Origin: Bacteroidota bacterium
GTDB taxonomy: Bacteria; Bacteroidota; Bacteroidia; Chitinophagales; LD1
Assembly: GCA_018267365.1 (NCBI GenBank)
Contig: JAFDYQ010000010.1
Span: 1 to 64,000 of the forward strand
DNA length: 64,000 nt
Direction of reading: 5' to 3'
Shown here: positions 1,777 to 53,231 of the stretch, in pieces
Layout of the letters: the number at the start of each line of letters is the position of its first letter
How positions within the stretch are numbered: the first letter of the stretch is position 1
Translations under genes and position numbers: made by a program
The notes under the pieces: generated by a model
The model's input: the letters and a program-made list of their open reading frames with translations, nothing else
What the model was told of the DNA's origin: nothing
The model's database searches: none

Positions 1777-4407
1777 TTAGAATGGCAGTTTGATGCCCTT
1801 TGTAGCGTTCTTTAGTTTGTCTGCGGCATCCTTGGCGGCCTTGTCTGCTGCCTCTTGTGCTTGTTTTTTAGCCTGCTCAGCAGCCTTCTTTGCAGCATCC
1901 TCTGCTTGCTGCTTAGCCTGATTGGCAGCATCTTTTACGGCATCTTTCACTGCGCCGCCTACAGAGCCGCCTATGCCGGCTACACTACCTACGCTGACCG
2001 TGGGTTTACTCACTGTTCCACCGACCTTTAGTGTCACATTGATCTTCTCCGGCATCTTGAATGGTACACCTGGTATCTGTGGAATCTTGCTGATCAGTCC
2101 ACCTGTAGCCTGGTTGAGTTCAGAGGTAGGTATGTCAGCCTTTAGGTCATAGGCTATGGTCTCGTCAAAGCCATTAGAGCCGGCTACGTTGATATTATAC
2201 CCATTACCAAACTTGATATCAAATGGATCTACATCCACGCGCCCATTATGAAATTTGATAGTGGTCCATGCATTATTGATGGCAAGGTTGTCGAGTGACT
2301 TTACTTTGGTCGCCTCTGCTATCTTCTGAAGTATTGGCAGGTTGACTACACGTGCAGATGGGATAGAGACTTTGCCGCTACCATTCAGGCTGTTGTAGTC
2401 TACACTCATATCCTCTTTCAGTACGCCGGTACCACTCAGGTCAGATGCAAATGAGCCTTGGATATATTTCATCACAGGAGCCATCTTGGCTGCCATATCT
2501 ACAGCCGTGTAGGTTTGTGTGATATCAAAGTTCTTGATGTTGTAGCTGAAGGTCACCTTAGGGTGATTGGTGCCCTTGGTATCATACAGCGCACTGATGA
2601 TCGCCGAGCCGCCCAGCAGGTTAGCAGATAGCTCCTGTAGGTGTATAGACTCATCATAGATATGGACATTGCCGACTACATTGGTCAGTACCAGTTTGTC
2701 GTATAGTATCTTGCCAAACTGTGACCTGGCGGTGAAGTCTATTCCCTTCGGCACATCAAAGTATTGCTTGCCTCCGGCAGGAGTGCCGGTGGTGTTCTTG
2801 GGGTCAGCCGGGCTCTTCTGTGCCGTACTGGTAGTGGCATCATCCTTCACCAGCCACTCATTTGCATCAAACTGATTAGACTTCAGCGTCACTACACCCA
2901 CCAGGTTGCCTTTATTAAACATATACCCGATCAGGTTGTCCATGGAGCCTTGCGCATTGATATCGCTCTTGCCCAGCACTGCACTCAGGTTATCCAGAGA
3001 CACTTTCTGCGGGTTGAAGGTCAGGCCCAGATCTGATACTCTGACCGGCATCGGGGTAGACTTGGAGTCATAGACCATGTTGGTCACTTTCACCTTGCCG
3101 GATGCCTGTATAGCTGTGTAGTTCTTTTTCTGCACATCGCTCATACGGCCTTTAAAGTTGAGGTTGGCTACCAGCAGGCCGGTCAGCTGCTTCAGGCCTT
3201 CCATAGGGTAGAGCTTAGGTACACTGGAGAGATCCAGCCTGCCATTGATCTTGGCTGCTACATTGGGGTCAGACACGGGCGTACTCACATGTATAGAGGC
3301 ATCTATAGGGTCATTGGCTATAGACAGGTGTAGTGCTGGCACATCTATTACAGTCAGGTCGGCGGAGCCCTGAGGCTTATTGATATTGGCAGAGACGTTG
3401 ATGTCTGTGACTGCAGATGGCAGCGATGGATACTGAAACATTGCATTCCTGACCTGCAGATTCAGTTTGATGCCCGGCAGGGTGGTAGAGTCGTAGGAGC
3501 CCTTCACCGCGCCATCCAGGGCCAGTGAGCCGGAGGTCTTGATCTTATCAAAGTCCTTTTTGAAGATGGCCGGTATCAGAGACAAGATGCTCTTGAAGTC
3601 GGCCTGTTTAGACTTGAAGGTCACATCCATGCCGATATCCTTTTTGTTCATCTGTACAAAACCGTCAAACAGGAGGCCCAGATCATTGAGGTCTATTTCG
3701 TTTTGTTTGAAGCTATACTTAGAGTTCTTTTGGTCTACATCTATATCATTCTTCGCAGAGAGTTTCGCTCCGCTCAGATAGGAGACAGCTCCACTTTTGA
3801 AGGTCAACGTAGCGATATTGGTTTTAGTGCTGAGCTTGTAGAGATCCTGTGTCACATCTCCACTACCTTCAAAGTTCAGGTCGCCTATCGAGAGATAGGT
3901 GCCGCCCTTTTGGTCGTCGTATACTATATAGGCGTTCTCTATCTTGTAGGTATTGATCTCGAGAGCAAAGACAGAGTTGCTACCCCCGGTCTTTTCTGTA
4001 GATGGGGTAGGTTTCATGATGTCCCAGTTTGCTTTACCCGCCTTTGTCACTACGGCGTGGACCTTAGGACTGCCGACTATGATCTCTTTGATCTTGTACT
4101 TCTTGCCTTCTATCACAGACATTACGTCTATCACCACACGAAAGTCCTGCACAGAGAGTAGAGTATCCTTGGCAAACTCATCTATACCTGCCACAGAGAG
4201 CTTATTCATACCAAAGCTCAGGTTAGGAAAGGAGCGGATCAGGGAGAGGTCATAGTCCGCATAGTTGACTTTTGCTTTGACCTGTTTATTGATCTCCGTC
4301 TTGATAGCGGCATTGATCTGGTCTTTGAATAGATAAGGAATAGCTATCAGCGCTCCTATGAAAAGGATAAGAAACACAACGACGCCTATCAGGATTTTTT
4401 TGAGCAT
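1777..4407 (-). CDS. AsmA-family protein
   Basis: This 876-residue protein is anchored in the inner membrane by one N-terminal segment (about residues 6-27) and otherwise projects into the periplasm as a long repetitive beta structure. That layout is typical of AsmA/TamB-like proteins, which are now thought to carry or bridge lipids between membranes. The N-terminal region is AsmA-like. The last 60 residues are an Ala/Lys/Gln-rich helical tail, after a Gly/Val linker, that reads as a coiled coil. It stands alone between two terminators. The exact lipid role is inferred from the family only. Confidence 0.8.
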   Translation of the reverse strand: MLKKILIGVVVFLILFIGALIAIPYLFKDQINAAIKTEINKQVKAKVNYADYDLSLIRSFPNLSFGMNKLSVAGIDEFAKDTLLSVQDFRVVIDVMSVIEGKKYKIKEIIVGSPKVHAVVTKAGKANWDIMKPTPSTEKTGGSNSVFALEINTYKIENAYIVYDDQKGGTYLSIGDLNFEGSGDVTQDLYKLSTKTNIATLTFKSGAVSYLSGAKLSAKNDIDVDQKNSKYSFKQNEIDLNDLGLLFDGFVQMNKKDIGMDVTFKSKQADFKSILSLIPAIFKKDFDKIKTSGSLALDGAVKGSYDSTTLPGIKLNLQVRNAMFQYPSLPSAVTDINVSANINKPQGSADLTVIDVPALHLSIANDPIDASIHVSTPVSDPNVAAKINGRLDLSSVPKLYPMEGLKQLTGLLVANLNFKGRMSDVQKKNYTAIQASGKVKVTNMVYDSKSTPMPVRVSDLGLTFNPQKVSLDNLSAVLGKSDINAQGSMDNLIGYMFNKGNLVGVVTLKSNQFDANEWLVKDDATTSTAQKSPADPKNTTGTPAGGKQYFDVPKGIDFTARSQFGKILYDKLVLTNVVGNVHIYDESIHLQELSANLLGGSAIISALYDTKGTNHPKVTFSYNIKNFDITQTYTAVDMAAKMAPVMKYIQGSFASDLSGTGVLKEDMSVDYNSLNGSGKVSIPSARVVNLPILQKIAEATKVKSLDNLAINNAWTTIKFHNGRVDVDPFDIKFGNGYNINVAGSNGFDETIAYDLKADIPTSELNQATGGLISKIPQIPGVPFKMPEKINVTLKVGGTVSKPTVSVGSVAGIGGSVGGAVKDAVKDAANQAKQQAEDAAKKAAEQAKKQAQEAADKAAKDAADKLKNATKGIKLPF

Positions 4408-4495
4408 GTGGGTTGATTTTAAATGGCTTGGGTCAATAACTGTACCAAGTTAAATCTTTTACCAGAAACGATAATATGAACTCGGTAGAAATGCA

Positions 4496-4523
4496 AAAAG
4501 GGACGACCTGAGCCATCCCTTTT
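4496..4523 (-). terminator. Terminator after the Spo0M-like gene
   Basis: An 8-bp stem (AAAAGGGA, 4496-4503, with TCCCTTTT, 4516-4523) encloses a 12-base loop. On the minus strand the stem runs into a T run just downstream of the Spo0M-like stop. Confidence 0.65.
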
Positions 4524-4546
4524 CACAGTTTTTATCAACCGATATA

Positions 4547-5023
4547 TCAGCCTATCACCTTCTTGATCTTGACTATATCATTAGGATCCAGCTTAGCACC
4601 ATCTACATCTACTGTAGCGATGATACTGTATTCTGACTTTTCTCCATCCAGAAAGGCACCCATCTTGCCCAGGCCGCCCATTACGCCGCCTTTCTCTTTC
4701 ATGCGATCATTCTCAGAGCGCAGAAACTGGAATGGCAGATCGAAGGTCTTGGTCACGACCTCTCCCTCTTTGATATCGAAAGGCTGGTCAAACTTGACCT
4801 TGCCTAGAGTGAATTCCTTGGTTTCCTTATTGTCGCCTGTACCCGTGGTCCAGGATTCCTCCAGTTTAAACTCGATGCTCTTGATGCGTTGCTCACTTTT
4901 GCCTGTGATGGTCACGGAGCCGGATACCTGCGTATCAGATGATTTGAAAGTAGGTGGTACGGAAAGCTTGACCGATACGGTGCCGATCCCGAAAAATTGT
5001 TTGATCTTCTTGATAAAGGACAT
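4547..5023 (-). CDS. Spo0M-like (sporulation-control/arrestin-fold) protein
   Basis: A 158-residue soluble protein starting MSFIKKIKQFFGIG, then an arrestin-like beta sandwich: a strand on ligand tension (VSGSVTITGKSEQRIKSIEFKLEE), a central KEFTLGKVKFD, and C-terminal YSIIATVDVDGAKLDPND. It resembles the N-terminal domain of Spo0M proteins. Those occur widely in non-sporulating bacteria, so the name should not be taken as evidence for sporulation. It lacks the long C-terminal part of Bacillus Spo0M. It probably acts as a scaffold or stress protein; that is a guess. Confidence 0.65.
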   Translation of the reverse strand: MSFIKKIKQFFGIGTVSVKLSVPPTFKSSDTQVSGSVTITGKSEQRIKSIEFKLEESWTTGTGDNKETKEFTLGKVKFDQPFDIKEGEVVTKTFDLPFQFLRSENDRMKEKGGVMGGLGKMGAFLDGEKSEYSIIATVDVDGAKLDPNDIVKIKKVIG

Positions 5024-5141
5024 GTTGTTTGGTTTAGGATGTTGAGTAAAAATTGACAGGGCAATGATACACTACACCCAAAAACGGGGCCATTCAAATT
5101 TTAATGAAAAATCGGAACTCTGATCTAATGGGACTATCGGA

Positions 5142-5801
5142 TCAGTAGTCGTTCTTGGGCAGTTGGGGCTCTGCCTTTTTCTTAAAGTCGCCATTCTTCA
5201 GCGCGCGGATAAACTCCGCCCAGGCCAGTGGATTGAAGATATTCTGCGGTGCCTGCTGGTGGTAGTAGTAAGCCTGCTGCGCCCGCACCTGCATGTATCG
5301 CTGCGCAGCCTCGCCACCATCTATAGGCAGTTTCTCGCCTAATGCGCTTAGGATTGCATTGGAAGTGTTTTCCATGGCACGCTGTTCGAGGTCTTTTGGC
5401 GGTCGTGCATCACGAAAGGCCTGAGGAAAATTTGACCGGTCACCCCAATAATATACAGTGATCAGAGGCCCTATGAAAGGCGCGCGACGCATCAGGATGA
5501 TAGTAGATATCTTACTGTCTTCCACATTGCTGGGTACTATGTATGTAGCTGGCTCGTAGCCCAGCGAGGTGAAGTACAGTGTATCACCCTCATTTACAGC
5601 AAAGGAGAAGAAGCCATCTACACGTGCCACGCCGCCGCGATTGCTGCCGCGCAGGCCTATGTGTGCAAATGGGATACCCGTCATAGAGTCCTGAGACATA
5701 GCAAAACCTGAGAATTGCACGACAGGCCTGTCTTTTTTCTGAGCCGAAGCCATGACCGGTACCAGTAGGGAGAGGAGGACTATATGGAGGATGCTTTTCA
5801 C
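5142..5801 (-). CDS. Secreted protein with carboxypeptidase-regulatory-like domain
   Basis: A 219-residue protein with a signal peptide (MKSILHIVLLSLLVPVMASA). A beta-sandwich segment follows (about 28-100; GFAMSQDSMTGIPFAHIGLRG, then GFFSFAVNEGDTLYFTSLGYE), the pattern of the CarboxypepD_reg-like domain seen at the start of TonB-dependent receptors. No receptor follows. The C-terminal half is Gln/Ala-rich and helical. It is probably periplasmic or outer-membrane attached, function unknown. It is divergent from ftsX, and the region between holds a promoter for each side. Confidence 0.7.
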   Translation of the reverse strand: MKSILHIVLLSLLVPVMASAQKKDRPVVQFSGFAMSQDSMTGIPFAHIGLRGSNRGGVARVDGFFSFAVNEGDTLYFTSLGYEPATYIVPSNVEDSKISTIILMRRAPFIGPLITVYYWGDRSNFPQAFRDARPPKDLEQRAMENTSNAILSALGEKLPIDGGEAAQRYMQVRAQQAYYYHQQAPQNIFNPLAWAEFIRALKNGDFKKKAEPQLPKNDY

Positions 5802-5816
5802 AATATGAATCTATGA

Positions 5817-5845
5817 CAAAGGTACGAATCTATCTACTTATTCAA
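5817..5845 (-). promoter_or_regulatory. Promoter of the 5142-5801 gene
   Basis: The minus strand reads TACCTTTG (5824-5817), a full TAnnTTTG match, with TTG 18 bases upstream (5845-5843). The start codon follows 15 bases after the octamer. Confidence 0.6.
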
Positions 5846-5990
5846 TACAAATGCGGTGCCGCTCTGGAGCTTTCGCAAGATTTAACAGCGTCAGGTCCTT
5901 ATTATTGTGCTGATCAGATGTACTGATTTTCATGTCGGTCATTTCCACCCCGAGCTGTGGACAAACAAAGTGCGCGATGACCGCAAAAAA

Positions 5991-7208: not shown

Positions 7209-8068
7209 CCACACTCGAATCAGTGATACTGGGCATCGTAGAGGGGCTCACTGAGTACCTGCCCATATCCAGCACGGGCCACATGATCATAGCACAAGCG
7301 CTGCTACATGTAGAAAGTTCTAAATTTCTGAGCATCTACCTGGTCAATATACAGTTTGGAGCTATCCTGGCAGTAGTAGTCCTATACCTTCGCCGCTTCC
7401 TCAATTTCCGTGCTCCGTCTTTCTATTTCAAACTGGCCGTAGCTTTTGCTCCGGCTGTAGTCATCGGCCTCGCAGTGAAAAATGTAGTGGAAGAGCTGCA
7501 GAAACATGTAGAGGTAGTAGCTGCTTCTCTGATAATTGGCGGCATTGCGCTGATCGCGGCTGACTATATCTTTAAGAGTCAGATCCACGATAAAGAAGAG
7601 TTGCATACTGACTCTGATGAGGAGCAGGCTACCCCTGAGGACCCCGATAGATCAGGTATCCGCCTAAACTACATGCAGTCTCTGCTGGTAGGTTTTGCGC
7701 AGACACTGGGCATGATACCCGGTGTGTCGCGCTCGGCAGCTACTATCATAGCCGGCCTGTCTCAGCGCCTCACTATGAGAGAGGCAGCTGAGTTTTCCTT
7801 CTTCCTGGGGGTGCCTACCATCACTGCAGCAGCGGTGTACAAGACGATGAAGGACTTCCGCTATATCCATGGCGATCAGGTGTCACTGCTGGTCATAGGC
7901 AATATCGTATCATTCATCGTGGCTATGATCGCTGTCAAATATTTTGTGGATTTCATCGCAAAGCACGGCATGAAGTTCTTTGGCTATTATCGCATAGCCA
8001 TTGGCATATTGCTATTGATACTTCCTTACGTTTTTCATATTTCTCTCCAGATCAAAGAAGCTCAGTAA
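7205..8068 (+). CDS. uppP: Undecaprenyl-diphosphatase
   Basis: An integral membrane enzyme (287 residues) that dephosphorylates undecaprenyl diphosphate, recycling the lipid carrier for peptidoglycan and other envelope polymers. It shows both UppP active-site blocks: EGLTEYLPISSTGHM with E13, E17 and H26, and PGVSRSAATI around residues 171-180 with the catalytic arginine. A hydrophilic acidic insert (about residues 120-152, rich in Asp/Glu) lies between two membrane segments and makes the protein slightly longer than the E. coli enzyme. It is translationally coupled to the DUF3098 gene and abuts truB. Confidence 0.95.
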   Translation: MTTLESVILGIVEGLTEYLPISSTGHMIIAQALLHVESSKFLSIYLVNIQFGAILAVVVLYLRRFLNFRAPSFYFKLAVAFAPAVVIGLAVKNVVEELQKHVEVVAASLIIGGIALIAADYIFKSQIHDKEELHTDSDEEQATPEDPDRSGIRLNYMQSLLVGFAQTLGMIPGVSRSAATIIAGLSQRLTMREAAEFSFFLGVPTITAAAVYKTMKDFRYIHGDQVSLLVIGNIVSFIVAMIAVKYFVDFIAKHGMKFFGYYRIAIGILLLILPYVFHISLQIKEAQ

Positions 8069-8752
8069 ATGGACTTTGCCGCAGGCACAGTGCTACTAGT
8101 CAATAAGCCGCTGAAGTGGACTTCCTTTGATGTAGTCAATAAAATAAGAGGCGCGCTCAAGCGCAAGTATGGCTCTAAGATCAAGGTGGGCCATGCCGGT
8201 ACTCTCGATCCCCTGGCCACCGGGCTGCTCATCATCTGCACCGGTAAATTTACCAAGCAGATAGATAGCTATCAGGCGCAGGAGAAAGAATATACAGGTT
8301 CGCTGCTACTGGGCGCCACCACGCCTACACTGGATGCTGAGATGCAGCCGGACAAACTCTATCCCACAGAGCACATCACCCCTGATACGGTGCGGACAGC
8401 TGCGGCGACTTTCATAGGAGATATAGAGCAGATGCCGCCGGCCTTCTCTGCGCTCAAGGTAAACGGACAGACGTCATATAGCGCTGCGCGCAAGGGGATA
8501 GAGCTGGAGCTGAAGCCGCGTGTGGTGGCTATACGGGAGTTTGAGATCACAGAGATAGAGCTTCCCGCTGTGTCATTTCGCGTGGTATGTGGCAAGGGTA
8601 CATACATCCGCTCACTGGCACGGGACCTGGGCCATGCACTGGATAGCGGCGCCTATCTGACCGCTCTGTGCCGTACCCGCATCGGTGATTACAAACTTAC
8701 AGAAGCCTGGGAGGTGCCCGCACTACTGGAGTATATCAATACCCAACCGTAG
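8069..8752 (+). CDS. truB: tRNA pseudouridine(55) synthase TruB
   Basis: Converts U55 of the tRNA T-loop to pseudouridine. The 227-residue protein has the catalytic block GHAGTLDPLATG with the nucleophile Asp47, then the TruB pattern YTGSLLLGATTPTLDAE, and the conserved GTYIRSLARDLG near residue 180. It ends shortly after that block and so lacks the C-terminal PUA extension of E. coli TruB, which is usual for Bacteroidota. It follows uppP with no gap, so the two are surely cotranscribed. Confidence 0.95.
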   Translation: MDFAAGTVLLVNKPLKWTSFDVVNKIRGALKRKYGSKIKVGHAGTLDPLATGLLIICTGKFTKQIDSYQAQEKEYTGSLLLGATTPTLDAEMQPDKLYPTEHITPDTVRTAAATFIGDIEQMPPAFSALKVNGQTSYSAARKGIELELKPRVVAIREFEITEIELPAVSFRVVCGKGTYIRSLARDLGHALDSGAYLTALCRTRIGDYKLTEAWEVPALLEYINTQP

Positions 8753-12312: not shown

Positions 12313-12328
12313 TGTGTTCCCGTCGGGA
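12313..12328. repeat. attL core
   Basis: TGTGTTCCCGTCGGGA, identical to 53157-53172. Allowing one mismatch the match is 20 of 21 (from 12308 outwards it breaks off). The sequence is the tRNA-Lys acceptor-stem and T-arm 3' end left as a fragment. Confidence 0.9.
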
Positions 12329-13901: not shown

Positions 13902-13983
13902 TTGTTGCTCTGGTAAAGCGACAATCCGCTGGCATACCGGTCAATGTATGCCTGCTTGTATTCATTCACCCAATATAAAAACA

Positions 13984-15876
13984 ATGGCAAAGTCCAAAGG
14001 AAAAGGCTCTCCGGAGCCACAAGACGAACTGGCAGAGCTGCTCCGAAAGAATGCAGCGCCACCCGCAGCTCCGGTAAAGCAGAGCACACCATCTGCAGAG
14101 GAGCCACGATTTGAGCGGATCCCGCTGAACCGCATCAAGCCTTCACCTACCAACCCGCGCACCACCTTCGATGAGAAGAAGACGCAGGAGCTCTCTGAGA
14201 GTATCAAGGTGCATGGAGTTCTCCAGCCCGTACTCGTGCGGCCATACGGCCAGCCGGGCTGGTATCAGCTCGTATACGGCCAGCGCCGTGAGAAAGCCTC
14301 ACTGATGGCAGGCCTGACACATATCCCTGCGCTGGTCCGCGACCTGACCGATGATCAGGTGATAGAGATACAGATCACCGAGAACCTCCAGCGCGAGGAC
14401 GTCAAGCCCATCGAGGAGGCCAATGCCTACAAGAACCTCATGGAGATCAAAGGCTATGATATCAGGGAGCTGTCAGAGCGTGTTGGCAAGACACCCGCCT
14501 TTATCGCTCAGCGCCTCAAGCTCAATGATCTGGTAGACGAATTCCAGAAGGCGATGTTTGAGGACCGGCTCACGATTGTAGATGCGCTCAAGGTGGCCAA
14601 GCTCAGGGCTGAGGATCAGAAGGACCTCTGGAAAGAAGAGGAGATGGAAGAGGGCGAAATACATGTACGTGACTATATGCTACGCAAATACATGTATGAC
14701 CTCAATAACGCACCCTTCGATACAACAGACGCAACTATCCTGCCCGGCATGAAGGCCTGCACAACATGTAGCTTTAATACGGCCTGCACCACAGCGCTAT
14801 TTGCAGAGCCGGAGCATAAGGCTCACTGCTCTTATGCCGAATGCTTCAAGAAGAAAACGACCGTCTACTACGATCGTGAGCTGCAAAAGTGTATAGAGGA
14901 CTCCACCATCACGCTGGTGGCCACCTATGGCAGCGATAGCAAGAAGATCGCAGAACTCAGGGCTAAAGGTATCAGTATCCTCGATCCATACACTTATGAA
15001 GAGATCTACCACCCCGGTCCGTTCGATCCAGACCTTGAGATCACAGAAAAAAGTAGCCGCGCTGACATAGCAGACTATGAGGATCAAAAGGCTTACTATG
15101 AAAAGGAAGTCCAGGAATACAATGAGGATATTAAGACTGCGATCAAAGCCTTTGTAGCCTTTGGCAACGAGAAAGGCAAATACATTTATATCAAACCGCA
15201 CAAGGGCAGATCAGGTGCCAAGGCTGCTGCCCAGAATACCAATGCGAGTAACGAATTCCGTGCCGCTGAGATCAAAGAAAACATCCAGCGCATCAAAGAC
15301 AAGGAGGCACGTCAGCAAGACCTGGATTTCTTCAAGGTTGCTCCCGATGCCTACAAGCTGCTGACTGATGCCAAGATACATGAGGGAAGCAAAGAATCTC
15401 TCAATGCCCTTGAGCTGGCCGCCGCGATCATAGAGCTCGCCGGATATTCACATGAGCGCGATGTGATCAAGTATCTGAAAGCGCCATCCTCTGTACACGG
15501 CAGTATCCCTCTATACAATTGGCTGAAAGCTCGCAGTGCGGAGTCACTCACCGAAGCTCTGAACCTTGTCCTACGTCTGCGACTGAACAAGTACCTGCGA
15601 CCTGAAAGTGAACAAACCATGCATAGGCATACGAATGTGCTGGCCATGATGGATCAGGTCAAGGCCCACTTCCCGGATAAATACAACGTCATCATGACCG
15701 CCCTGGATGACAAGAAAACCAAGCGCGCAGGAAAGGTTAAGAGCGCAATAGACGAGCTGCAGGACCAGTTGAAGGAGATACAAGGCTCCAAGACTGATCG
15801 CGTTGTGAAGGCCTCTAAATCGAAAATGGGGGGGGGTAAAACCATCGTCAACGTCATAATCGCGGGCTCATGCTGA
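13984..15876 (+). CDS. ParB-like nuclease-domain protein
   Basis: 630 residues from ATG 13984 (the frame is open 36 bases more). Residues about 35-125 are a ParB N-terminal domain: FERIPLNRIKPSPTNPR, LVYGQRREKASLMAG and the ENLQRED CTP/DNA-contact box. The HTH follows (LSERVGKTPAFIAQRLKL). After about 250 comes a cysteine-rich stretch (CTTCSFNTAC, then HCSYAEC), possibly metal binding, then a long helical C-terminus unlike chromosomal ParB. No ParA is nearby. A DNA-processing or replication-accessory role is as likely as partition. A run of nine Gs (15828-15836) lies near the end; the last 12 codons are read after it. Confidence 0.75.
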   Translation: MAKSKGKGSPEPQDELAELLRKNAAPPAAPVKQSTPSAEEPRFERIPLNRIKPSPTNPRTTFDEKKTQELSESIKVHGVLQPVLVRPYGQPGWYQLVYGQRREKASLMAGLTHIPALVRDLTDDQVIEIQITENLQREDVKPIEEANAYKNLMEIKGYDIRELSERVGKTPAFIAQRLKLNDLVDEFQKAMFEDRLTIVDALKVAKLRAEDQKDLWKEEEMEEGEIHVRDYMLRKYMYDLNNAPFDTTDATILPGMKACTTCSFNTACTTALFAEPEHKAHCSYAECFKKKTTVYYDRELQKCIEDSTITLVATYGSDSKKIAELRAKGISILDPYTYEEIYHPGPFDPDLEITEKSSRADIADYEDQKAYYEKEVQEYNEDIKTAIKAFVAFGNEKGKYIYIKPHKGRSGAKAAAQNTNASNEFRAAEIKENIQRIKDKEARQQDLDFFKVAPDAYKLLTDAKIHEGSKESLNALELAAAIIELAGYSHERDVIKYLKAPSSVHGSIPLYNWLKARSAESLTEALNLVLRLRLNKYLRPESEQTMHRHTNVLAMMDQVKAHFPDKYNVIMTALDDKKTKRAGKVKSAIDELQDQLKEIQGSKTDRVVKASKSKMGGGKTIVNVIIAGSC

Positions 15877-16586: not shown

Positions 16587-16853
16587 GTGGACAAAGAAAA
16601 AATTCAACAGCGCCTAAATGAAATCCTCGAGCGGCGCCACCAGATAGAGGCCACCAATAACATCCTCCGCGCCGACTCAGCGCATCGTAGAGGTGCTATC
16701 GCCGTCACAAATAGCACAGCCGCTGCCTTGATCAAATGCTATACAGCCGATATCGCCGCCAATGAGAAAAAGATAGAGGATCAGCAGAACGAGTATGAAG
16801 TCCTGGGCAAAGAGGCCAGAGAATTGCAAAACCAAATCGCAGAGCACTCATGA
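16587..16853 (+). CDS. Coiled-coil early phage protein
   Basis: 88 residues beginning at GTG 16587, one base after the preceding stop. Nearly the whole length is heptad-like and charged (QQRLNEILERRHQIEATNN and EKKIEDQQNEYEVLGKEA), so it is probably a coiled-coil dimer. Its last four bases overlap the ASCH gene. Unknown role; small coiled-coil proteins beside nucleases or DNA enzymes often act as adaptors. Confidence 0.5.
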   Translation: MDKEKIQQRLNEILERRHQIEATNNILRADSAHRRGAIAVTNSTAAALIKCYTADIAANEKKIEDQQNEYEVLGKEARELQNQIAEHS

Positions 16854-17305
16854 AAGCAATCTCCCTCATACAGCCCTGGGCTGTGCTCTGCTGCCTTGGC
16901 ATAAAGACGCTGGAGACCCGCTCCTGGTCTACCAAGTACCGCGGCCAGCTGCTGATCCACGCGAGTGGTCGTCTAACGCCGGAGAGTCAGGCGCTGATGA
17001 TATCACGCGAGTTCACACCATTCTCTGAGATACTGCCTGACAGCATGGCCACCGGCGCCATCATCGGCAAAGTGAATCTGCGTGAGGTCATCAAAGCTAA
17101 AGACTTCCTGAAGTCACCGCCCACCTGGTGGGATGGTGAGCTGCGGCACGAGAGGATCCTCGGGGACCTTTCCGGAGAGCGCTACGTCTGGCTGCTAGAC
17201 TCACCTGTATTATTTGATCACGCCATCCCATGCCGTGGCCGCCTCAGCATCTGGGATTACAAACCACAAGTAGTATGCACATCTACCTATCCGACCACGC
17301 CATAG
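16850..17305 (+). CDS. ASCH domain protein
   Basis: A 151-residue protein of the ASCH/PUA-like fold. The signature MKAISLIQPWA at the start, KTLETRSW with the R-W pair that binds a nucleotide or base, and a final HAIPCRGRLSIWDY strand are all typical. ASCH domains bind RNA or modified nucleosides, and some hydrolyse N4-acetylcytidine. Phages carry them often. Here it sits in a cluster of small overlapping early genes, where a counter-defence or nucleotide-modification role is possible but not shown. Confidence 0.8.
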   Translation: MKAISLIQPWAVLCCLGIKTLETRSWSTKYRGQLLIHASGRLTPESQALMISREFTPFSEILPDSMATGAIIGKVNLREVIKAKDFLKSPPTWWDGELRHERILGDLSGERYVWLLDSPVLFDHAIPCRGRLSIWDYKPQVVCTSTYPTTP

Positions 17306-18026: not shown

Positions 18027-21000
18027 GTGCTATCACAAAATACCATAGATGCCGTCAAGGCTCTGCCTATAGAGCAGGTTCTGCGCCGCTACGTCGAGCT
18101 CAAAGCGGCAGGCTCCAGCCTGAAGGCCTGCTGCCCACTACATGGAGAGAAGACGCCAAGCTTTAACGTAAATAAAGTCTCCGGCCGCTGGAAGTGCTTC
18201 GGCTGCCAGAAAGGGGGCGATGCCATCGCATTTGTTCAAGAGAAATTTAACCTCCCATTTTATGAAGCAATCAAAACGATCGCGTCAGACAACAACGTTC
18301 TCATCGAAGAGTCCTTTGATGAAAGCATCAGCCCGGAGCGACGCAAAGAACTCCGCCAGCGAAACGACACCGCCTACCTGCTACTCGACAAAAGTGACCG
18401 GCGATATCGCGGACATCTACAATCAGATGATCCTGATGCAAAGAAGGTGCTCCGCTATCTGCTCCATGATAGAAAGCTCGGCCTCTCTACCATCCACAAG
18501 TGGGGACTCGGATACGCTCCGCACAATTTCCAGTTTCTCCAGGGAGATACGATTCCAAAAAACGACCGCGCTGTCGCTGTCGAAATTGGACTCCTTAGAG
18601 AGAAAGATGGCAAGTATACTGACGCCCAGATCAACAGACTCACCATCCCCATCCGCAACGTCCAGGGTGCTATTATCGGATTTGGTAGCAGAGATGTCTC
18701 GGGAGCCGCGCCTTCGCCAAATCAGGGAAGCTTTGTCCCGGCCAAATACCTGAACCTCGGCAATAGCTTTATCTACCGCAAGGAGAACGTTCTATTTGGC
18801 CTGCACAATGCAGCGCCATATATCCGCAAGCACGGATATGTGATATTGGTAGAGGGCTATATGAGTGTGATCCGCATGGACCAGTTTGGTATGAGCCATG
18901 CCGTGGCCACCTGTGGCACCGCACTTACAGAGGGACAGGCCAAGGAACTGAAACGGTATACGGACAAGATAGTCCTCATGCGTGACGCAGATGATGCCGG
19001 CTACAGGTCTATCGTGCAGAATATCCCTACGCTGCTCAATGCAGGCTTTAAGGTGCAGGTCTTCCTGCTCACATTGCCTCAGGCTGATCCTGATCCGCGT
19101 ATGAAGGCCTCTGACTATGACCCGGAATACAAGGACCGCAAACTCGATCCGGACGACGCCTGCGATGAATTAGTGTTCCATCGCAAGACGATAGAGAAGA
19201 ACTCCGTAGATGGCACTATGTTCTACATAGACCATCTGGCCAGGACTGCAGATAGCGTCACTACCAAGAGCGAGGAGATCGCCAAGTTCATTGGCCGTAT
19301 AGATAACCCTATCACCCGGGAGCTTTACACTACCCGTGCTCTGGATGCTTATACCTTCATTCCCAAGAAGTCATTTCTCAATCTCATCAGCCTAACAGTC
19401 AAAAACAGCGGCAACAAGGGTGAGGAGCGCGAGGACGAGACCAGCAGCGTATGGTACCGTGCTGATAAGAGCATCTGGATAAAGGCTAAGAACGGCTGGG
19501 ATGTCGTGGCCAGCAACTTCCACATCTACATCATGTACGTGGCAGAGGATGACCGGGAGAATATCACATGGGTACTCCGGCTGGAGCTGGAGTCGGGAGA
19601 GAACGTCTACCTCGAGGTAGAGCACGACGACTTTACCTCAGCGTCCCGCCTGGCCAAGATCATTGCATCCAAGCAGCTGGCGCTGAAGATCACCGGCGCT
19701 CACCTGGCAGAGCTGCATGAGTTCCTGTTCACACGTACCAGCTATAAGCGAGCCATCAAGATCACACGCTTCGGATATCATGAGCAGAGCGACTCCTTCA
19801 TATACAGCAATGGAGCCTTGATACCGTGCGAACCGGGTGAAGATGGCAAAGCCTACAAGATCGCAGAGCCGGACGACTTTGGCATGGTGCACACAGATAA
19901 ATACTATCTGTCGTTGCCCAAGGTGCCAAAGAACATCCGTCAGCCATTCACTATCACAGACCACGCCATCACCTTTGATGAGTGGTTTACCGTCTTCACC
20001 CGCACGCACCTGATCCGCCATACCTTCGGAGCCGCCTGTCACACTATCTTCTCGCTGTTTCGTGATATCGGCCTGCGCCACAAGTCGTTCAGCCCTATCT
20101 TCTTTTTAAAAGGTTCAGCTGGTACCGGCAAGTCATCCATCATACGCTCTGCCACCTGCATCTATGGCTTCACGCCCAAGGAGATAAACCTGAAGGGTAA
20201 GAACTCAGAGCCCGGCATCATACGCACCATGAGCGCCACCAGCAACGGCCTGATCTGGATGGATGAGTTTATCAATCTGCATCCCTTTGAGGGCATCCTG
20301 CAGGCCGCCTATGACAATGCCGGCCAGGTCAAGGCCTCCGGATCGAGCGGCCTCGAGCTGGACAATGTAGAGCTGAAGTCAGCGCTGGCGCTCACGTCAA
20401 ACTACCTGCCGGAGAATCCCATCTTCTTTAGCCGCTGCGTGTACGATGCAGTGATGGACCAGACCAAGACACCTGACCAGACCAGGGCATTCAATGAAAT
20501 GCGGCAGCTTGAGGAAAAGGGCCTTGCTCAGATATCTATAGAGCTGATGCAGCACCGTGCGCTGATCGAGGAGCACTACGGTGCCTTTTACGACCAGCTC
20601 TACAAAGGCTTTAAGCAGCACCAGCTGCTGGCCGGCCTCACGGTACCTGAGCGCCTTTTTGGCAATATGGCCCAGATCATGACTGCCGCCTTTATCCTCT
20701 GCAGAGCAGACAAGATCCACATGACAGAGGAGCTCGGCAGGGAAGGAGTCTATGATGAATTTGTGAACCGCGGCGCAGAGTACATCTACCGCCAGTACCG
20801 GGTACAGACGGAGAAGACCGCTCTGCACGAGTTCTTTGAGATCCTCCAGATGATGTATGACAAGAGTGAGATCTTCGAGCTGGTACACTTCAAGCTGGAG
20901 GATGGTGTCAATGTGGCCTTCCGCTTTGGCGCCCTCTACACGCTATTCAAAGCCAGGTACCGCAATGTCAACTTCCGCGAGGCTCCCGACCGGGAGACCA

Positions 21001-21236
21001 TCAAGGACGAGCTGTGCAAGCTCACTAACGTAGATCATGACAAGCTCTTCACGCAGATACGCTTCCTGCAGGATATCACAGATACCGGCAATAGCCGCAC
21101 AGTACCGACAAAGGATTGCTTCCGCTGTAGCTACCAGCTGCTGGTAGATACGTTCGGTATTGACTTTAAGTCACGTAAGATGGCCGGTACACTCGGCAGC
21201 TGGGCGCAGGCAGACCAGCGGATAAACAGGAATTAA
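18027..21236 (+). CDS. Primase-helicase fusion protein
   Basis: A 1069-residue replication protein with a GTG start. Residues about 30-65 form a CHC2 zinc-binding domain (C36, H39, C57, C60). A DnaG-type catalytic core follows, with a TOPRIM domain showing VEGY near 275 and DADDAG near 320. A large middle region is followed by an ATPase with Walker A GSAGTGKS (about 696-703) and Walker B WMDEF (near 746), of the DUF927/SF3-like helicase group. It would unwind DNA and lay RNA primers in one chain. The iteron array lies directly behind it, and the ParB-like gene is upstream. Confidence 0.88.
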   Translation: MLSQNTIDAVKALPIEQVLRRYVELKAAGSSLKACCPLHGEKTPSFNVNKVSGRWKCFGCQKGGDAIAFVQEKFNLPFYEAIKTIASDNNVLIEESFDESISPERRKELRQRNDTAYLLLDKSDRRYRGHLQSDDPDAKKVLRYLLHDRKLGLSTIHKWGLGYAPHNFQFLQGDTIPKNDRAVAVEIGLLREKDGKYTDAQINRLTIPIRNVQGAIIGFGSRDVSGAAPSPNQGSFVPAKYLNLGNSFIYRKENVLFGLHNAAPYIRKHGYVILVEGYMSVIRMDQFGMSHAVATCGTALTEGQAKELKRYTDKIVLMRDADDAGYRSIVQNIPTLLNAGFKVQVFLLTLPQADPDPRMKASDYDPEYKDRKLDPDDACDELVFHRKTIEKNSVDGTMFYIDHLARTADSVTTKSEEIAKFIGRIDNPITRELYTTRALDAYTFIPKKSFLNLISLTVKNSGNKGEEREDETSSVWYRADKSIWIKAKNGWDVVASNFHIYIMYVAEDDRENITWVLRLELESGENVYLEVEHDDFTSASRLAKIIASKQLALKITGAHLAELHEFLFTRTSYKRAIKITRFGYHEQSDSFIYSNGALIPCEPGEDGKAYKIAEPDDFGMVHTDKYYLSLPKVPKNIRQPFTITDHAITFDEWFTVFTRTHLIRHTFGAACHTIFSLFRDIGLRHKSFSPIFFLKGSAGTGKSSIIRSATCIYGFTPKEINLKGKNSEPGIIRTMSATSNGLIWMDEFINLHPFEGILQAAYDNAGQVKASGSSGLELDNVELKSALALTSNYLPENPIFFSRCVYDAVMDQTKTPDQTRAFNEMRQLEEKGLAQISIELMQHRALIEEHYGAFYDQLYKGFKQHQLLAGLTVPERLFGNMAQIMTAAFILCRADKIHMTEELGREGVYDEFVNRGAEYIYRQYRVQTEKTALHEFFEILQMMYDKSEIFELVHFKLEDGVNVAFRFGALYTLFKARYRNVNFREAPDRETIKDELCKLTNVDHDKLFTQIRFLQDITDTGNSRTVPTKDCFRCSYQLLVDTFGIDFKSRKMAGTLGSWAQADQRINRN

Positions 21237-21488
21237 ATACAGGAAACCGACAGAAAACCAGATACACCAACTACAATAAACCTAAATAAATGAATATCAA
21301 TATTATAAATGATTCTTAGTGTAGTTAGAAGTGTAGTTGAGGTGTAGTAGTGTAGTAAGTGTATCGGCCGTACTACACTTGAACTACACTAGATTTTAGA
21401 TAAATGATTTAAAACCAATGATTTAATCCAGTGTAGTAGTTGTAGTAAGATACAGAGCCCTTTTTTTAAAACAGTAAAAACCACTCAA
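21237..21488. other. Candidate prophage replication origin with iterons
   Basis: A noncoding 252-base gap. GTGTAGT occurs in direct orientation at 21319, 21331, 21342, 21350 and 21431, and inverted at 21372 and 21383; spacing is often 11-12 bases, one helical turn. The block 21317-21338 is repeated as its inverted copy at 21371-21391, differing by one base in the spacer, around a CGGCCG centre (21365-21370). An AT-rich stretch (21283-21316) on the left could be the unwinding site. It lies immediately after the primase-helicase. Confidence 0.65.
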
Positions 21489-49639: not shown

Positions 49640-49990
49640 ATGTCACAGAATCCGAGAAGGGATGAACTGCGGGCTATTTGCCGCGCATTACCGCCGCGTG
49701 GGGAAGGGGAGACCGTCAATGAACAGTTAGCCGCTCATTACGCAGAACAGGGCTATAAAGTCCTGAAATCATACAAACAATGGCAGGAAGAAGGCCGACA
49801 GGTCAAGAAAGGAGAAACCGCCCTATTGCTGTGGGGCAAGCCGAACCAGCACAAGGAGAAACAGACCGCAGACGGTCAGACCGTACAGGTGCCCACCTTG
49901 CAGCAGGACGACGATACAAAGTTTTTTCCCCTTGCCTATGTATTTGATATTACCCAAACTAAACCCGCCACTGATGGAACTGATAATTGA
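49640..49990 (+). CDS. ArdC N-terminal-like ssDNA-binding protein
   Basis: 116 residues matching the N-terminal ArdC-type domain: the sequence AEQGYKVLKSYKQWQEEGRQV, then KGETALLLWG and FFPLAYVFDITQT, is the typical order. ArdC proteins bind single-stranded DNA and protect incoming DNA from restriction. The usual C-terminal metallopeptidase half is missing, as in many short forms. Its end overlaps the next start by 17 bases. Confidence 0.78.
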   Translation: MSQNPRRDELRAICRALPPRGEGETVNEQLAAHYAEQGYKVLKSYKQWQEEGRQVKKGETALLLWGKPNQHKEKQTADGQTVQVPTLQQDDDTKFFPLAYVFDITQTKPATDGTDN

Positions 49991-50201
49991 ACCCGCGCAA
50001 TTCCTGATAGATGCCCTCCAGGAGAAGACACTGGATGAATTATTATCTATCATTCAGCAGTCTGCGCACTGCGATAAAATCAGCACTATATCTATTCACA
50101 TGGTCGCGCTCGATATACTAGCTAGGCAGTATCCATACGCCTATGAAAAGTTTGAGCAGACTCTAAATTTTCCATATGGAGTACCTGCCGAATTGGATTA
50201 A
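49974..50201 (+). CDS. Small protein between ArdC-like and methylase genes
   Basis: 75 residues from ATG 49974 with a helical acidic sequence (MELIIEPAQFLIDALQEKTLDE in pieces). No motif was recognised. It overlaps the ArdC-like gene by 17 bases and the methylase by 26, so the three are translationally coupled. Confidence 0.5.
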   Translation: MELIIEPAQFLIDALQEKTLDELLSIIQQSAHCDKISTISIHMVALDILARQYPYAYEKFEQTLNFPYGVPAELD

Positions 50202-50928
50202 GCCATTTGACAAGATATTTACTCAACTAACCTATAGATGGGATCACCTGCAGATTTTCGAGGACTTTCTATCTATTGCCGTGTCAAACTTTCAGTTAGT
50301 CCCAACCGAGGGACTGGCTGAAAGGATGCGCAGCACCTACAACGAGAAGGAGCTACAGTTATTCGCGGAGCTGTTCCGCTGCTGGGTCATGACCATGCAC
50401 AATGAAATTAAATCCGAGGAGTGGAAGTACTTGGATATACTAGGGGAGTATTACCAATATCTCAGCGGCAAGTACCACAAAGGGAAGCTAGGACAGTTTT
50501 TCACGCCTCAGCCTATGGTCGATATGCTTACAGAAATGACCATAGAGGAGCCAACTGATGAGATACAGACCGTGAGCGACCCGACCGCAGGCAGTGGCCG
50601 TATGTTGCTATCCGCGCACATGAAATTGAAAGGTAAAATGTTGGCCTTCGCAGAGGATATAGATGGTATGTGTTGCAAGATTTGCGCGCTCAATTTCCTG
50701 ATCCACGGAGTAGAGGGAGAGGTAATACAACACGACAGCCTCAGAATGAGCGATATTATACAAGGCTGGCACGTCAACCCGATGCGTAAGTATGGAGCTT
50801 TTTACATTCAACCCATCACACAAGAGGAAAGCGTTATAATGCGCCACAAGGCAGGCGAACAGCCGAAGGCTGTACAACCTCAACTGTTCGACAAACCGCC
50901 CGCAGAGGAGCACGTAGTTTATTTTTAG
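50176..50928 (+). CDS. N6-adenine methylase-like protein lacking NPPY
   Basis: A 250-residue protein of the HsdM/N6-MTase fold. It has GQFFTPQPMVDMLTEM, which marks the family, the SAM-binding DPTAGSGRML, and a later acidic AFAEDIDGMCC. The catalytic motif IV (N/D-PP-Y/F) expected after HDSLRMSDI is absent, where the sequence is WHVNPMRKYG. So it may bind SAM and DNA but not methylate, or have shifted chemistry. Short methylases of this type occur beside ArdC genes on mobile elements. Confidence 0.75.
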   Translation: MEYLPNWIKPFDKIFTQLTYRWDHLQIFEDFLSIAVSNFQLVPTEGLAERMRSTYNEKELQLFAELFRCWVMTMHNEIKSEEWKYLDILGEYYQYLSGKYHKGKLGQFFTPQPMVDMLTEMTIEEPTDEIQTVSDPTAGSGRMLLSAHMKLKGKMLAFAEDIDGMCCKICALNFLIHGVEGEVIQHDSLRMSDIIQGWHVNPMRKYGAFYIQPITQEESVIMRHKAGEQPKAVQPQLFDKPPAEEHVVYF

Positions 50929-53156: not shown

Positions 53157-53172
53157 TGTGTTCCCGTCGGGA
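53157..53172. repeat. attR core
   Basis: TGTGTTCCCGTCGGGA, identical to attL at 12313-12328, covering the 3' end of the tRNA-Lys gene. The phage copy restores the full gene. Confidence 0.9.
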
Positions 53173-53231
53173 TTCGAACCCGAGACCCATACATTAAAAG
53201 TGTATTGCTCTACCAGCTGAGCTACGGAAAC
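53159..53231 (-). tRNA. tRNA-Lys (TTT)
   Basis: 73 bases on the minus strand. Acceptor GTTTCCG pairs with CGGGAAC (one G-T), D-arm GCTCAGCTGGTAGAGC, anticodon stem ATACA/TGTAT with loop CTTTTAA (anticodon TTT), T-loop GGTTCGAATCC, discriminator A. CCA is not encoded. It is intact and remains the only tRNA in the window. Confidence 0.96.

Follow-up and report, generated by a model that had tools for sequence, protein, structure and literature searches.

P4 alpha combines a Toprim primase with a helicase whose C-terminal part binds the origin and works with iterons; P4 carries two repeat regions, ori and crr, which lie far apart. In a report on the pRN1 primase-helicase, P4 alpha is drawn on for comparison (PMC4234260). 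The C terminus of SaPI Rep recognises iterons located directly downstream of its own gene, and the repeats that follow the SCCmec Cch2 gene are bound by the isolated C-terminal domain of Cch2, as described in a paper that contains no in vivo replication result for Cch2 (PMC7581432). PICI origins have iteron sets on both sides of an AT-rich region that lies immediately 3' of rep, and plasmid replication is driven by the segment (PMC6092414).

Our analysis of a 64-kb stretch of Bacteroidota DNA (hereafter the window) concerns an array of heptamers lying directly behind a primase-helicase gene of a prophage. Positions 21263-21446 are very likely the vegetative origin of a temperate Bacteroidota phage, the heptamers being predicted to be bound as iterons by the C-terminal part of the primase-helicase encoded upstream; such arrays are very probably the start sites of DNA copying in these phages. 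This reading is based on about two dozen other viruses of the phylum, in which the related gene is followed by an equivalent array with a word suited to each helicase lineage. The comparison with the arrays of relatives thus strongly supports the initial annotation, which had proposed a candidate phage origin behind the primase-helicase. The features are as follows.

12313-12328, + strand: left attachment-site core, TGTGTTCCCGTCGGGA, a direct repeat with 53157-53172
13948-15876, + strand: ParB-like protein (ParB_N and HTH_ParB), outside the conserved cassette
18027-21236, + strand: DnaG-type primase fused to a Cch/SaPI-Rep-like AAA+ helicase, the proposed initiator (Pfam, relatives, AlphaFold, Foldseek)
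20799-21236, + strand: C-terminal ~145 residues of the helicase, the proposed iteron-reading domain (confident model, pLDDT 84.6)
21263-21276, - strand: left outer inverted pair, degenerate (TACACCA ACTACAA), aligned with the ACTACA-N2-ACTACA of relatives
21277-21318, no strand: left AT-rich box, only a partial match to the AAGTA-TTGATAATCAAT box of relatives
21319-21356, + strand: central block of four direct GTGTAGT copies (21319, 21331, 21342 and 21350; spacings 12, 11 and 8)
21365-21370, no strand: CGGCCG between the direct and inverted copies, not conserved in relatives
21372-21389, - strand: two inverted GTGTAGT copies, 11 bp apart
21390-21429, no strand: right AT-rich box
21431-21446, + strand: right outer direct pair, GTGTAGT and TTGTAGT, 9 bp apart (8 bp in most relatives)
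53157-53172, + strand: right attachment-site core, at the 3' end of tRNA-Lys (53158-53231, - strand) and beside the integrase

The prophage is ~41 kb long and is bounded by the 16-nt direct repeat. Besides the ParB-like protein and the primase-helicase, it encodes an HTH protein resembling a repressor, a head maturation protease, a tape measure protein and a protein that matches portals weakly. A candidate identity as a PICI satellite was rejected, given the protease, tape measure and weakly matching portal genes. An ASCH-domain protein is encoded between the ParB-like and primase genes (16850-17305), and near the integrase lie genes for an ArdC N-terminal-like protein and, after it, an N6 DNA methylase (49640-50928). 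The tRNA-Lys was the only match in an Rfam search, a terminator search found none, and GC skew, which has no turning point at 21.3 kb, is uninformative as an origin marker here.

Within the 252-bp intergenic stretch (21237-21488), all seven GTGTAGT heptamers of the initial annotation, five direct and two inverted, were found as exact copies, on the + strand at 21319, 21331, 21342, 21350 and 21431 and on the - strand at 21372 and 21383. They occupy 21319-21437, and the cluster covers ~190 bp (21263-21446) when the degenerate outer copies on either side (TACACCAACTACAA at 21263-21276 and TTGTAGT at 21440-21446) are included. The proposal that the heptamers are mostly 11-12 bases apart is only roughly right: the direct spacings of 12 and 11 and the 11 of the inverted pair fit, but the direct spacing of 8 and the 48 bases to the last copy do not. 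AT-rich DNA does lie beside the repeats, not as the single stretch first described but as two boxes separating three repeat blocks. The inverted copy of 21317-21338 at 21371-21391, also claimed, is present and matches with a one-base indel; 21330-21349 and 21371-21390 are 90% complementary. Some 7-mer, counted on either strand, occurred at least seven times in 4 of 20,000 dinucleotide shuffles of the intergenic stretch. Other 252-bp stretches of the window hold at most five copies of any 7-mer, making the array the most word-repetitive of them, and the 4.6 Mb assembly contains its 27-base central part a single time.

Pfam assigns a Zn ribbon, DNAG_N and Toprim to the primase half (residues 1 to ~356) and leaves the helicase half (residues ~470-1069), whose end at 21236 directly precedes the array, without a family name; among the helicases, DUF927 matches by sequence only that of locus L065, weakly and below the Pfam cut-off. 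Searching the PDB by sequence with the helicase gave nothing useful, and a fold search was required. The top Foldseek matches of an AlphaFold model of residues 401-1069 (pLDDT 77.7, from 20 sequences) are SCCmec Cch (5dgk, 3.4e-16) and SaPIbov1 Rep (8tch, 4.0e-15), with the next other match at 2e-5. The order of helices and strands in the C-terminal domain suggests a winged helix, an assignment that we keep as a suggestion because this piece alone has no match among PDB structures.

The predicted Cch/SaPIbov1-Rep fold, the position of the candidate origin immediately 3' of the helicase gene, the short iterons flanking AT-rich DNA and the primase fused to the helicase (beside or fused to it in SaPIs and PICIs; PMC6092414, PMC7581432) are all features shared with the SaPI/PICI rep-ori system, and fold, position and layout together make it most likely that the window system works like a SaPI Rep/PICI origin. 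The two differ in that the window system belongs to a Bacteroidota phage with head and tail genes, that DnaG or other primases are exchanged at its N terminus, and that its three blocks and two boxes are a layout variant of the two iteron sets around one AT-rich region in SaPIs and PICIs. With respect to the SCCmec elements, Cch is the best structural match of the helicase model and Cch2 likewise has direct repeats behind its gene, where its C-terminal domain binds them, whereas phage genes are absent there and the Cch2 site comprises only three iterons (PMC7581432). The window protein resembles P4 alpha in being a Toprim primase fused to a helicase and in the presence of iterons, but the window has a single array, with no second crr-like region, and the fold search points to Cch and SaPI Rep first. 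The pRN1 origin is also directly 3' of its primase-helicase gene (PMC4234260); it is a stem-loop without iterons, in contrast to the iterons without conserved stem geometry seen here.

Relatives were collected by alignment-based searches and comprise viral contigs together with 17 loci in bacterial genomes, including those of Runella, Dyadobacter, Arcicella, Spirosoma, Larkinella, Rudanella and Emticicia. The near set consists of 21 distinct loci with this helicase, the window included, the relatives being 37-67% identical. L068, which ends inside the helicase gene, was excluded; in L067, where the frame is broken, the gene end was placed according to the reading frame of the final matched segment, and a stop or frameshift near the gene end in L062 and L063 was left unchanged. 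In 21/21 loci, the 300 bp that directly follow the helicase gene on its 3' side contain an array. These 300 bp are the most repetitive stretch of each near locus except L045, in which they rank second to a stretch 4.1 kb from the array; 6-mers reach 8-13 copies behind the helicase versus 4-8 elsewhere in the loci, except that one stretch of L045 holds 13. The nearest relative, L002 (IMG/VR), has only the helicase half in common with the window's protein (62% identity): its gene (3852-5969) lacks the primase half, yet is followed by the same GTGTAGT array. The L002 primase may be encoded elsewhere or be that of the host. The genes that follow the array in the window and in L002 are unrelated, which implies that the array goes with the preceding gene.

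Alignment of 24 arrays, i.e. those of the 21 near loci and of three distant phages, reveals an order and phasing common to all. On the left, an inverted pair 8 bp apart is followed by an AT-rich box, often with TTGATAATCAA; the centre is formed by three to five direct copies at 11-bp spacing, with one or two copies 8-9 bp further on; on the right, one or two inverted copies, likewise at 11-bp spacing, precede a second AT-rich box and a direct pair 8 bp apart. The window array fits this layout end to end, its left pair and AT-rich boxes being poorer than those of relatives. The variable base of the core word is near-uniform within an array and differs between arrays, the word being TGTAGT, TGTTGT or TGTGGT in the near loci, while the distant phages follow the same plan with GTTGAGA (Flavobacterium laban6-1 and FPSV-D15, the helicase of which is ~20% identical) or TGTGGAA (L048). 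As a point against the preferred reading, comparable arrays are found 0.3-2.4 kb from the helicase gene in Ingeline, Porphyromonas phages and L107: Cellulophaga Ingeline has TTGGAAC-like words 2.4 kb downstream, and the Porphyromonas phages and a faecal contig have GTTGGAC or GTAGGAC 0.3-2 kb downstream. In L107, a DnaG-helicase gene is followed at 618 bp by TTTGTAGTT words (8065-8430) that are oriented opposite to it. A near-palindrome, TTGATNATCAA, often occurs in both AT-rich boxes of relatives (e.g. from +74 in L040 and from +56 in L054 behind the gene end) and is possibly a second protein site; by eye, the boxes are not consistent with IHF sites.

Mapped on the helicase tree, word class requires two changes, compared with four to nine in 500 label shuffles, and it needs three on a tree built without the C-terminal 130 residues. 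The type of N-terminal primase module, which may be DnaG, BT4734-like, a Zn ribbon with DUF6371, or none, requires five changes; L066, with a DnaG-like half, is placed among the BT4734-type helicases and carries their word. The helicase half is favoured as the binder because array and word go with it, irrespective of which of the four kinds of N-terminal module is present. Columns without a residue common to A- and T-word helicases number 11/104 at residues 950-1069 versus 6/408 before (p 6e-5), with no comparable C-terminal excess in three control splits of the helicases. This association with word class is suggestive only, as it is phylogenetically confounded, the A/T word split being nearly one event on the tree.

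The initial annotation had left the choice of binder between the ParB-like protein and the primase C terminus; array and word point to the latter, i.e. to the helicase half, and the former is disfavoured since most array-bearing relatives have no ParB. A role for the array as a parS cluster, a centromere-like site at which the ParB-like protein would act in partition or gene control, is highly improbable, even with a protein bearing ParB_N and HTH_ParB encoded 5 kb upstream and a homologue in L002. That homologue is the only one among ten viral records searched, with 0/9 in the further whole records having this helicase kind; a ParB_N profile found none above cut-off in the same nine, its one match, in FPSV-D15, being below it. 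The array is accordingly not restricted to loci with a ParB gene, and the word class tracks the helicase tree. parS sites are separate palindromes, unlike heptamers spaced by 8-11 bp.

Plasmid initiators can autoregulate at their iterons, and short intergenic repeats ahead of a co-directional gene might be operators at which either the phage repressor or the helicase regulates the genes downstream. We consider this very unlikely: the array is kept while the genes behind it are unrelated between relatives, a promoter search found no excess, and a conserved 190-bp layout with two AT-rich boxes is more than an operator needs. GTGTAGT is, moreover, absent at the repressor gene and elsewhere in the early region, so that the repressor-operator finding named at the outset as counting against an origin was not seen. 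The 20-nt arms around CGGCCG raise the further alternative of a hairpin or cruciform origin, or of an RNA element, in which the stem and not the repeats is recognised, with a precedent in pRN1, where a stem-loop downstream of the primase-helicase gene (orf904) is required (PMC4234260). The loop varies from 21 to >80 nt between relatives, as does the position of the arms, which are built from different copies; CGGCCG is not conserved, and RNA folding of the array is weak (z = -1.7). Recognition of a stem thus seems scarcely probable.

For the iteron-bound origin that we prefer, a working scheme can be proposed. The C-terminal part of the helicase would bind the heptamers, and its monomers would line up on one face of the DNA, because several copies are one DNA turn apart. 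The bound helicase may then assemble as rings over the central block and open one or both AT-rich boxes; having thereby loaded itself, it would move outwards to initiate replication, with the fused primase priming the forks.

The window system may be described as an origin of the known downstream-iteron type newly placed in Bacteroidota phages, with exchangeable primases. A literature search, with most subscription journals outside its scope, found no paper mapping such origins in temperate Bacteroidota phages. On balance we favour the existence of a Bacteroidota-wide phage replication cassette, in which the helicase C terminus and the downstream array move as a unit onto which four N-terminal states have been swapped. 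If so, this origin layout would not be exclusive to PICIs, contrary to what has been stated, and the iteron word would be an identity tag of each helicase lineage, such that co-replication would be possible for phages whose words differ, whereas a shared word would lead to competition. The results tie a self-loading SaPI/Cch-like helicase to ordinary phages, beyond satellites and SCC elements, and provide a rule by which the probable origin can be located from sequence in many temperate Bacteroidota phages. The natural helicase/word pairs may be useful as a readout of DNA specificity and for replicating vectors for Bacteroidota.

In a reverse search of viral contigs for 11-bp-spaced words, this helicase was nearby in 6/156 loci, and many other matches look like unrelated repeats or short fragments. 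Four loci (L171, at 7913-8082, L176, L217 and L227) have strong GTTGTA arrays, with a direct and then an inverted block around an AT-rich stretch. The seemingly unrelated matches and these four arrays of another kind imply that the spaced-word pattern alone does not identify the present system. The four may be origins of a similar kind that use a different initiator; the L171 array lies just behind the gene for a DUF6371, AAA_25 and HTH protein, a helicase type differing from that of the window.
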